From NCBI RefSeq assembly GCF_019351405.1, contig NZ_JAHWZX010000003.1:1-64000 (forward strand): DNA of 64,000 nt. The letters are read 5' to 3'. The notes beneath the pieces are model-generated. The model worked only from the letters and a program-made list of their open reading frames with translations, had not been told where the DNA came from and searched no databases. Numbering within the stretch: position 1 is the stretch's first letter; each line of letters opens with the position of its first letter. The DNA is from Stakelama flava. Its GTDB lineage: Bacteria; Pseudomonadota; Alphaproteobacteria; Sphingomonadales; Sphingomonadaceae. Shown one piece after another: positions 45,296 through 50,597 of this stretch. Both the position numbers and the translations under genes were made by a program.

Positions 45296-45333
45296 AAAAA
45301 CTCCCGTCCGGATGACCGGGCGGGAGTTTTTTT
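45296..45333. terminator. Bidirectional rho-independent terminator shared by degP and dinB
   Basis: AAAAACTCCCG (45296-45306) is perfectly complementary to CGGGAGTTTTT (45321-45331). T-runs follow the stem on the plus strand and A-runs precede it, so it works in both directions. Its right edge overlaps the dinB stop codon. A smaller hairpin (GAAGCG/CGCTTC) lies just upstream. Confidence 0.9.
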
Positions 45334-46420
45334 ACAGCGGCAAGCCGGGTTGAACCTCTGCTTCCCCCTCGCCGGGACGGAAGATTCCCGACAGCGTCAG
45401 TCCGAGCAGACGGATGCCGAGCCGGGTAGGCAGGAACTGGTCGAGAAGCTGTTCGCCGATCGCCAGAAAGGTCGCGCTGCCGTCCACTTCCTGCGCGAAG
45501 CTGATCGCGCGGGTGCGGGTGGTGAAATCGGCGAAACGGATTTTCAGCGTCACCGTGCGTCCGCGCGTATCGCTGCGTTCGACCCGTTCCCATGCCGCGT
45601 CCGCCACCCGTGCCAATGCGTCGCGCAGCGCCGCACGGTCGCGCAAATCCTCTCCGAACGTGCGCTCGGCACCCACCGACTTTCGCGGCCGGTCCGGACG
45701 CACGGGCCGGTGGTCCTCCCCCCGCGCCGCGCCATACAGATAGTCCGCGCTTGAACGGAAATGGGCTTTCAGAAAATCCAGGCTCTTGCCCGCAAGGTCC
45801 GCGCCGGTACGGATGCCCAGCCGCTCCATCTTCGTCGCGGTCACCGGCCCGACGCCATGGAAGCGTCGGATCGGCAGCGTGGCGACGAAAGCAGCGCCCT
45901 TTGCGGGCGGAATGATGCACATGCCATCGGGCTTGTTCTGGTCGGACGCCAGCTTCGCGATGAACTTGTTGTACGACACCCCGGCCGAAGCGGTGAGGTG
46001 CGTTTCTTCGCGGATGCGGGCACGGATCTGCTGCGCGATCGCGCTTGCCGAACCAAGGCTGTGCCGGTCCTCCGTCACGTCCAGATACGCTTCGTCGAGC
46101 GAGAGCGGTTCGATCAGGTCGGTATAGTCAGCGAAGATATCGCGAATCTGCTGCGACACCGCGCGATAGACGTCGAAGCGCGAGGAAACGAAGATCAGGC
46201 CGGGACAGCGGCGCTGTGCGGTGACCGACGGCATCGCCGACTTCACCCCGTATTTGCGCGCTTCGTAACTCGCCGCCGCCACCACGCCGCGCGCCTTTGC
46301 GCTGCCCACCGCCACCGGGCGCCCGCGAAGCGCGGGATTGTCGCGTTGTTCGACGCTGGCGAAAAACGCATCCATATCGACATGGATGATTTTGCGGATG
46401 GGGGGCGGATCGTCGGCCAT
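45332..46420 (-). CDS. dinB: DNA polymerase IV
   Basis: 362 residues of the Y-family. The palm motifs are present: KIIHVDMDAFFASVEQ with catalytic Asp, SLDEAYLDVTED with the Asp/Glu pair, and a helix-hairpin-helix and little-finger region. It synthesises across lesions during the SOS response. ATG at 46420 (MADDPPPIRK) is preferred over 46441. A perfect SOS box at 46456-46470 lies 36 bp upstream, so LexA control is expected. It ends inside the shared terminator with degP. Confidence 0.95.
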   Translation of the reverse strand: MADDPPPIRKIIHVDMDAFFASVEQRDNPALRGRPVAVGSAKARGVVAAASYEARKYGVKSAMPSVTAQRRCPGLIFVSSRFDVYRAVSQQIRDIFADYTDLIEPLSLDEAYLDVTEDRHSLGSASAIAQQIRARIREETHLTASAGVSYNKFIAKLASDQNKPDGMCIIPPAKGAAFVATLPIRRFHGVGPVTATKMERLGIRTGADLAGKSLDFLKAHFRSSADYLYGAARGEDHRPVRPDRPRKSVGAERTFGEDLRDRAALRDALARVADAAWERVERSDTRGRTVTLKIRFADFTTRTRAISFAQEVDGSATFLAIGEQLLDQFLPTRLGIRLLGLTLSGIFRPGEGEAEVQPGLPL

Positions 46421-46455
46421 GCTGCTATATGTTTCCGCCATAGCGCGGCTAGCGC

Positions 46456-46470
46456 GAACATGCCATGAAC
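46456..46470. promoter_or_regulatory. SOS box (LexA site) between dinB and the OPT gene
   Basis: GAAC (46456-46459), seven bases and GAAC (46467-46470) read as GTTC-N7-GTTC on the other strand, the alphaproteobacterial LexA consensus. The site is 36 bp before the dinB start and 36 bp before the OPT-transporter start, so it could affect both divergent genes. Confidence 0.7.
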
Positions 46471-46505: not shown

Positions 46506-48476
46506 ATGAGCGACACGAAGCGGGCCGGGACGGCCAGCGGATCACCGGCGGAACTGACGCTACGCGGTATCTTGCTGGGCGGGGTCATCACGCTGCTGTT
46601 CACCGCCGCCAATGTCTATCTGGGGCTGAAGGTCGGGCTGACCTTCGCCACGTCGATCCCCGCCGCCGTCATTTCGATGGCGATCCTGCGCGGGTTCAAG
46701 GATTCGACCATCTGGGAAAACAATATCGTCCAGACGGTGGCGAGCGCCGCCGGAACGCTCGCCGCGATCATCTTCGTGCTCCCCGGCCTCGTCATGATCG
46801 GCTGGTGGCAGGGCTTTCCCTATTGGACGACCGCGGCGATCACGGGCACCGGCGGCATATTGGGGGTGCTGTTCTCGGTGCCGCTTCGCCGCGCGCTCGT
46901 CGTCGATACCGACCTTCCCTATCCCGAAGGCAAGGCGGCGGCAGAGGTGCTGAAAGTCGGGTCCGAATCGCGTGAGGGCGCTGCGGAAAGCGCCAAGGGA
47001 TTGTCGGTGCTGCTGTGGAACGGGCTTGCCAGCGCCGGCTATGCGATATTGACGCAAACGCGGCTGTTCGCAGGCGAAGCGGCGACCTGGTTCCGCGTCG
47101 GTGGCGGCGCGACGGGGGGTGGATTCACGCTATCCTTCGCGCTGCTGGGCGTAGGCCATCTGGTCGGTATTTCGGTTGGCCTCGCCATGTTCGTCGGCGT
47201 GATCGTCAGTTCGGGTATCCTGCTTCCCATCCTCACTGCACAGAACCCGCTTCCCGGCGGTCCCGAAGCCTGGGCGGGGCAGATTTTCGGCGACGATGTC
47301 CGCTTTTTCGGCGCAGGGGTTATCGGCGTCGCCGCGATCTGGACGCTGCTTCGGATCGCAGGGCCGGTAATCGGCGGGGTGCGCTCCGCGATGGCAGCAA
47401 GCCGCGCGCGCCATGCGGGCGAAGCGCTGTCGGTCGAGGAGCGTGATCTGCCGATCGCGATCGTGGGCGCGGGGTCGCTTGTCATGCTGCTGGCGATCGG
47501 GTGGCTGCTCTATTCGGTGATCGCGTCGGGACCGCTTGCCGGGTCGGAGGTGTCGCTGATCGCGGGCGCAGTCATTTTCGTGGGCGTCATCGGCCTGCTG
47601 ATCGCGGCGGTTACCGGTTATATGGCGGGGCTGATCGGCGCATCAAATTCGCCGGTTTCGGGAATCGGCATCCTGTCGGTGGTTGCCGCCGCGCTGATGC
47701 TCGCCGGGATGTTCGGCCGTGACACTGGCCCCGACACCACCGCCGCGCTGGTCGCCTATGCGCTGATCGTCACAGGCGTGGTGTTCGGCGTTGCGACGAT
47801 TTCGAACGATAATCTTCAGGATCTGAAGACCGGGCAACTGGTTGGCGCGACGCCATGGAAGCAGCAGGTGGCGCTGGTGATCGGGGTGGTGTTCGGTTCG
47901 ATCATCATCCCGCCCGTGCTCGACCTGCTCAACACCGCGTTCGGGTTTGCAGGCGCACCGGGGGCGGGGCCGAATGCGCTGCCCGCCCCGCAGGCCGCGC
48001 TGATTTCGGCACTGGCCAAGGGCGTGCTGGGCGGCGACCTCAACTGGGCGATGATCGGCTGGGGCGCGGTCGCAGGCGTGATCTTCGTGATGCTGGACGA
48101 AGTGCTTGGCGCGGCGGGGCGGATGCGCCTGCCGCCGCTCGCGGTTGGGATCGGCGTGTACCTACCGATGTCGCTGATGCTGCCGGTATCAACCGGCGCG
48201 CTGATCGGCTGGTTCTACGATCGCTGGGCGGAGAAGCGGCGCGACAGCGAATTCGCGCTTCGCATGGGCGTGCTCACCGCGACCGGCATGATCGTTGGCG
48301 AAAGCCTGTGGGGCGTGGTGTTTGCCGGGATTGTAGCGGGGTCGGGTAGCAGCGGCGCGATGGCGCTGGCGGGCGATGGCTTCCAAACCCCCGCGCTGCT
48401 GCTCGGCGTCCTGCTTTTCGCGGGCCTTCTCGCCTTCCTCTACCGCCGCACCCGGCGATTGGTGGTGAGCGACTGA
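46506..48476 (+). CDS. OPT-family oligopeptide transporter
   Basis: 656 residues with about 15 hydrophobic segments. Signature segments of the bacterial OPT branch are present, such as TAANVYLGLKVGLTFATSIP near the N-terminus, SIWENN-type STIWENNIVQTVASAAGT, and FGVATISNDNLQDLKTGQLV. OPT proteins move peptides or metal-ligand complexes into the cytoplasm; the substrate is not predictable. ATG at 46506 follows GGGGAAC. A CACCCTTCGACAAGCTCAGG-type repeat follows about 40 bp after the stop. Confidence 0.88.
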   Translation: MSDTKRAGTASGSPAELTLRGILLGGVITLLFTAANVYLGLKVGLTFATSIPAAVISMAILRGFKDSTIWENNIVQTVASAAGTLAAIIFVLPGLVMIGWWQGFPYWTTAAITGTGGILGVLFSVPLRRALVVDTDLPYPEGKAAAEVLKVGSESREGAAESAKGLSVLLWNGLASAGYAILTQTRLFAGEAATWFRVGGGATGGGFTLSFALLGVGHLVGISVGLAMFVGVIVSSGILLPILTAQNPLPGGPEAWAGQIFGDDVRFFGAGVIGVAAIWTLLRIAGPVIGGVRSAMAASRARHAGEALSVEERDLPIAIVGAGSLVMLLAIGWLLYSVIASGPLAGSEVSLIAGAVIFVGVIGLLIAAVTGYMAGLIGASNSPVSGIGILSVVAAALMLAGMFGRDTGPDTTAALVAYALIVTGVVFGVATISNDNLQDLKTGQLVGATPWKQQVALVIGVVFGSIIIPPVLDLLNTAFGFAGAPGAGPNALPAPQAALISALAKGVLGGDLNWAMIGWGAVAGVIFVMLDEVLGAAGRMRLPPLAVGIGVYLPMSLMLPVSTGALIGWFYDRWAEKRRDSEFALRMGVLTATGMIVGESLWGVVFAGIVAGSGSSGAMALAGDGFQTPALLLGVLLFAGLLAFLYRRTRRLVVSD

Positions 48477-49049: not shown

Positions 49050-50597
49050 ATGACGACAACGCTCATCCCCATTCTTGGCGACCAGCTTACCCCTGATATC
49101 TCCTCGCTCGACGGCGCTGACCCCGATACCAGCGTCGTGCTGATGATGGAGGTTGCGGACGAAACGACGTATGTCAGTCATCACAAGGCGAAGATCGCGT
49201 TCATCCTGTCCGCCATGCGCCACCATGCCGCGCGGCTTCGCCAACTCGGCTGGACGGTCGAATATGTGAAGCTCGACGATCCCGACAATTCGGGCAGCTT
49301 CACCGGCGAAGTCGCGCGCGCGGTGGAACGCCATTCACCGGACCGCATCGTCGTGACGGAAGCCGGCGAATGGCGGGTCGCCGCAATGCTCGACCAATGG
49401 GAAACGCGGTTCGAGGCGGAGGTGGAGATACGGCCCGACACCCGCTTCATCGCCACCCATGCCGATTTCGACGACTGGGCAGAGGGGCGCAGTCAGCTTC
49501 GCATGGAATATTTCTACCGCGAGATGCGGCGCAAGACCGGGCTGCTGATGGATGGCGACAAGCCTGAAGGCGACAAATGGAATTATGACAAGGCGAACCG
49601 CAAGCCGCCGCCGGGCGGCACGCTCGACATGCCGCGCCCGATCGAGTTCCAGCCAGATGACGTGACGCGTGAGGTGATAGACATGGTCGCGAAACGTTTC
49701 GCCGACCATCCCGGAAGCCTCGATTCCTTCCATTTCGCGGTCACGCATGAAGAGGCGATGCGCGCCAAACGTCAGTTTCTCGATCACGCGCTGCCGTGTT
49801 TCGGCGACTATCAGGATGCGATGCTGACCGGCGAACCGTTTCTGTGGCACTCGATCCTGTCGCCCTATATCAACTGCGGCCTGCTCGATCCGCTCGACCT
49901 GTGCCGCGACGTTGCCGAGCGATATGCCGACGGCAAGGTGCCGCTCAATTCAGCCGAAGGGTTCATCCGACAGATCATCGGATGGCGTGAATATGTGCGC
50001 GGCATCTATTGGCGCGAAGGCCCCGATTATGTGGCCCGCAACTTCCTGAACGCGAAGCGCGACCTGCCCGGTGTCTATTGGACCGGCGACACCGACATGC
50101 ACTGCCTGTCCCAGGCGATCGGCCAGACGCTCGATCACGCCTATGCCCACCATATCCAGCGGCTGATGATCACCGGCAATTTCGCGCTGCTGATCGGTGC
50201 GGACCCCAAACAGGTGCATGAATGGTATCTGGAAGTGTATGCCGACGCCTATGAATGGGTCGAGCTTCCCAACACGCTGGGCATGACGCAGTTTGGCGAT
50301 GGCGGGCTTCTCGCATCCAAACCCTATGCGTCGTCGGGCAGCTATATCGACCGGATGTCGGACTATTGCACGCACTGCCGCTATGACGTGAAGCAGCGCA
50401 CGGGCGAGGATGCCTGCCCGTTCAACGCGCTGTACTGGGATTTCCTTGCGCGCAACGAGGACAAGCTGGGCGACAATCGTCGCCTTTCCATGCCCTATCG
50501 CAGCTGGGAAAAAATGGATGCCGACACGAAACGCAGCTTGCGGGCTTCGGCGCGCGCGTTTCTCGACCGGCTCGACGGCGCGTCCGGCGCAGATTAG
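49050..50597 (+). CDS. FeS-type bacterial photolyase/cryptochrome (PhrB-like)
   Basis: 515 residues of the FeS-BCP branch. Four cysteines that would bind a 4Fe-4S cluster are at 352 (DMHCLSQ), 440 and 443 (DYCTHCRYD) and 456 (EDACPFN). They sit two residues on from the numbering of the characterised Agrobacterium PhrB, from memory. The N-terminal part is the Rossmann-like antenna-binding domain and the C-terminal half binds FAD ([52 protein letters not shown]). Members repair 6-4 photoproducts. ATG at 49050 follows AAGGGAA. Confidence 0.92.

Follow-up and report, generated by a model that had tools for sequence, protein, structure and literature searches.

The gene pair considered here lies in a 64-kb stretch of DNA, referred to below as the window. 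Positions 45332 to 46420, on the minus strand, encode dinB (DNA polymerase IV, 362 aa; Pfam IMS, 3.4e-54; NCBIfam NF002677, 460.6 bits against a cut-off of 256), and positions 46506 to 48476, on the plus strand, encode an OPT-family oligopeptide transporter (656 aa; Pfam OPT, 1.3e-101; TIGR00733, 682.9 bits against a cut-off of 182.5); these family matches bear out the identities that an earlier note on this DNA had given to the two genes. The divergent gap between them measures 85 bp, and within it, on the minus strand at 46456-46470, lies GTTCATGGCATGTTC, the sole exact GTTC-N7-GTTC in the window and also its top 15-bp matrix score, at 14.6. The pattern search thus confirmed the perfect SOS box that the note had reported, together with its position midway between the two divergent starts: the box stands 35 bp from the start codon on either side, the figure of 36 given previously counting as far as the A of the ATG.

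We favour a dinB start codon at 46420 (MADDPPPIRKIIHVDMDAFF, minus strand) and set aside an alternative in-frame ATG at 46441, because the stretch from 46441 to the favoured ATG has 21 bases in this genome and 20 in G193, the genome of the closest relative. The OPT gene is probably a single-gene unit, since the next gene, which is queF-like, lies on the opposite strand. No sigma-70-like promoter was recognised between 46300 and 46620. Near OPT, at 49050-50597, the window also holds a photolyase-related gene (PF04244), the frame of which overlaps the predicted start of the opposite-strand queF-like gene.

When the window was shuffled 100 times, GTTCN7GTTC occurred on average 1.53 times, with at least one match in 75 of the 100 shuffles, and a single match anywhere in the window is unremarkable. 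Given that 1.53 matches are expected per window, the box is meaningful only through its location; for one given 85-bp gap the chance expectation of an exact box is about 0.002 (1.53 x 85/64000). The whole genome contains GTTCN7GTTC 128 times and its reversed pattern 40 times; for GTTCN6TGTTC the corresponding counts are 24 and 4.

The genome has one LexA match, and a box stands 16 bp before the lexA start (locus L125). Boxes of the GTTCN6TGTTC form are found as well at recA, uvrA, uvrD, imuA (named by its position ahead of an imuB-like frame, not by a family match), a umuC-like gene, rmuC, an S24-peptidase gene and two radical-SAM genes. SOS-type neighbours were recognised beside 10 of the 24 sites, lexA included, where rmuC and the radical-SAM genes are presumed by us to be of SOS type; of the remaining 13, not counting the query, some have the look of chance matches, such as one within a long frame (L131). 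Our scoring matrix was trained on these ten sites, chosen from the 24 by their neighbour genes, and favours the GTTCN6TGTTC form. On this scale the 14.6 of the dinB box compares with 12.4-23.7 for the training sites (leave-one-out), and when two flanking bases per side are included the box scores 9.9, fifth in the window, against 6.1-27.2, exceeding one training site (uvrD, 6.1) and falling under nine of the ten. As a direct repeat of the form GTTC-N7-GTTC, in a genome with a LexA that has a box of its own, and with a score inside the SOS-type range, though at the low end, the dinB-OPT site is, judged by its sequence, a plausible LexA box.

Two other places in the genome deserve mention in their own right. 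At C4:11389-11403 (L128) a single LexA box separates uvrA from an MmeI-like restriction-methylation gene that is transcribed divergently from it, and SOS control of this restriction system is possible. An identical box, GTTCGCTATTTGTTC, is present at C10:338-352 and at C14:35136-35150 (L135 and L139), in a repeated stretch near contig ends that is perhaps a mobile element.

Strong dinB matches were found in 93 of 101 genus genomes, at 106 places, of which 105 were covered (the one left out, G148:C18, lies near a contig end). They form two groups, split by identity to the dinB protein of the window (at least 68% against at most 64%) and without a tree. Within -250 to +20 an exact box was present at 6 of 47 close orthologs, the window's own gene left out, and all six point toward dinB; four of them cluster at -43 to -45, not far from the -50 seen here, and the remaining two are at -125 and -5. 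The second group is richer in exact boxes, with 41 of 57 loci, again all directed toward dinB. By matrix score, a site of at least 12 within -120 to +20 was found at 11 of 50 close orthologs (own, G238 and G262 included), leaving 39 that have none, and at 39 of the 57 second-group loci. Control gene starts, set at the earliest ATG or GTG in long frames and not taken from annotated genes, reach 12 in 2 of 285 cases and 14.6 in 1 of 285. A further null, from random window pieces, contained the query itself, and its 99.9% mark was left unused. Fisher's test on the close orthologs (10 of 49, own excluded) returned p of about 1e-7, a value that is no true probability, the sequences being related. 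LexA-like boxes at the dinB genes of the genus are far above background, though patchy.

We also examined 80 dinB loci from named genomes. Seventeen have an exact box within -250 to +20, sixteen directed toward dinB and one (L009) opposite, and over the same interval none was found at the five Qipengyuania and six Erythrobacter dinB loci. No OPT gene lies near dinB in any of the 80, up to 4 kb a side.

Our best reading is that the box serves dinB as a LexA operator particular to this lineage, and that its place in the middle of the 85 bp between the divergent genes, where their promoters would lie, is fortuitous; we place at roughly 0.75 the probability that it belongs to dinB and that OPT shares the gap by neighbourhood. 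LexA control of dinB, which the earlier note had expected, appears likely, supported as it is by the genome's own regulon and by the excess of boxes before dinB in relatives. From what is generally known of LexA, the repressor would sit on the box in an undamaged cell and block the dinB promoter, and once DNA is damaged RecA would stimulate the cleavage of LexA, so that dinB would be released. The transporter is probably a mere neighbour of the dinB box, to judge from the sequence comparisons below, and any effect of LexA on OPT would be a lineage-specific side effect of the mid-gap position.

The earlier note had also described the box as shared with OPT, and SOS control of the transporter as possible. 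Were it a true joint operator, LexA bound at mid-gap would repress both dinB and OPT and the transporter would be SOS-induced, a proposal that overlaps in part with the best explanation and that we consider unlikely. With a gap of only 85 bp both promoters probably reach the box, and for this reason a LexA effect on OPT in this genome is possible; moreover, the box between uvrA and the MmeI-like gene likewise sits between divergent genes. Against this, the box is directed toward dinB, a direction found in every one of the 47 dinB loci of the genus with an exact box, and the OPT genes of relatives lend the proposal no support. OPT is present in 230 of 295 genus genomes and 13 of 99 family-sample genomes (own included in both counts), which leaves 241 other OPT genes (in 229 of 294 other genus genomes and 12 of 97 genomes of other genera). 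We compared 41 of these loci, namely the 29 closest of the genus and the 12 of other genera, and the box expected upstream of the orthologs of an SOS-regulon member was kept, in exact form within -250 to +20, at none of the 41. Only the window's own locus and that of G193 among the 42 reach a score of 10 within -120 to +20, the latter by virtue of the site at its dinB start. Nor was LexA control of an OPT gene recognised in the titles and abstract openings of the literature searched, where OPT combined with Sphingomonas and DNA damage likewise gave nothing plainly relevant.

dinB lies beside OPT in 4 of 30 genus OPT loci (own and the 29 closest), these being the window's own, G193, G238 and G262. 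The own dinB site scores 14.6 at -50. G193 has a one-mismatch site at -9 that scores 16.2 and overlaps the start codon, and G238 and G262 have an identical 15-mer at -18, scoring 15.9 in each, with one mismatch and in the opposite direction. The pair genomes thus hold three distinct LexA-like sites, all near dinB, with no common place and no fixed distance from OPT. Chance may account in part for the sites with one mismatch close to a start codon. At the gap-free homologous place in G193, 4 of the 8 fixed box bases differ and the exact box is not kept. Boxes are enriched at dinB over the control starts, if patchily, but the position is not kept in G193, G238 or G262; there the LexA-like site is found at other places beside dinB, which argues against joint control.

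What the closest OPT genes do have in common is another element. CATGSCATGA, or a near form with up to two mismatches, begins 46 to 62 bp before OPT in the five closest OPT genes; here it reads CATGCCATGA (46459-46468, plus strand) and lies within the LexA box, a coincidence that speaks for a joint operator. Among these five, exact LexA half-sites overlap the element only in this genome, and the element occurs also in G266, where no dinB was found within 1.5 kb. The form in G193 has two mismatches, and since two-mismatch matches are found in 4 of the other 37 OPT loci as well, we regard that sequence match as weak. A second stretch, TTTCCGCCATAGCGCG (46432-46447, plus strand), recurs unchanged in G193 and with partial likeness in G266, again with no dinB found beside its OPT, and is a candidate part of the OPT promoter region. 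When the 75 bp upstream of OPT were compared, the likeness of the own sequence to those of G193 and G266 beat 1000 of 1000 single-base shuffles; it was less clear for G238, matched by 45 of 1000 shuffles, and for G262, matched by 29. G262 and G266 showed no likeness to each other (266 of 1000 as good). Genome-wide the element has 9 sites and its reversed pattern none; with about 13 expected at equal base frequencies, by our own estimate, these counts decide nothing about a regulon.

The CATGSCATGA element may be part of the OPT promoter and may let LexA interfere there in this genome. It is conceivable, if doubtful, that a drifting dinB box has landed on the OPT promoter, such that LexA would repress both genes and the transporter would be SOS-induced, as a recent gain through operator turnover. 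Less probable still is that the 15-mer has no LexA role and that in this species the bases flanking CATGSCATGA make up the rest of two GAAC half-sites by accident: 3 of the 8 fixed box bases do lie inside the shared element, the five outer ones mostly differ elsewhere (two are kept in G193, one each in G266 and G262, none in G238) and the score with flanks is modest, but only about 0.002 such boxes are expected in the gap, and this one lies upstream of dinB, in the usual direction, at nearly the place where four other orthologs have theirs.

A separate lead came from mraZ, the head of a division and cell-wall cluster. LexA-like boxes lie upstream of it in this genome (C12:61028-61042; L136:1501-1515) and in loci L264-L293; 10 of 30 genus loci, the 30 being drawn from 61 listed matches and considered without a length-matched control, score at least 12 within -350 to +20. 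Nine of these boxes are at -222 to -249 and the own one at -191, all in one common direction, and TCCCCGG-like repeats follow the box in several loci. No Rfam family was found in five mraZ loci. According to PMC3998124, Bacillus subtilis LexA binds in vitro at a gut-microbiome mraZ homolog, and the link between LexA and mraZ is therefore not wholly new. The recurrent mraZ box may nonetheless be a better lead than the dinB-OPT box.

That dinB should have a LexA box in front of it is to be expected, and the site is ordinary in kind. The comparison suggests that the LexA boxes of dinB turn over within one genus yet stay near dinB, and that a box can lie halfway between divergent genes without acting on both of them. 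A response of OPT, should there be one, would make a clean example of recruitment to the SOS regulon through the operator of a neighbouring gene.

LexA controls dinB in other alphaproteobacteria. For the Sphingomonadales the library searched gave no paper on dinB with LexA. In PMC7739468 the sole alphaproteobacterial line is an entry in the reference list, and PMC6473078 describes Dinoroseobacter LexA sites predicted with a matrix built from alphaproteobacterial sites. The closest known counterpart is the box of the Caulobacter SOS regulon, for which PMC12700426 gives GTTCN7GTTC as the LexA motif, with half-sites and spacing identical to those seen here; the word dinB is absent from the main text of that paper. 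The site in the window differs from that box in being predicted, in lying midway between dinB and an unrelated transporter and in its low-end score. As with the alphaproteobacterial LexA box, it is upstream of a translesion polymerase, and the motif is found also at the lexA, recA, uvrA and imuA of this genome. Within the genome its nearest likeness is the box between uvrA and the MmeI-like gene, where one box again lies between two divergent genes; that box, however, stands 8 bp away from the start predicted for uvrA, whereas the dinB-OPT box is equidistant from both starts.
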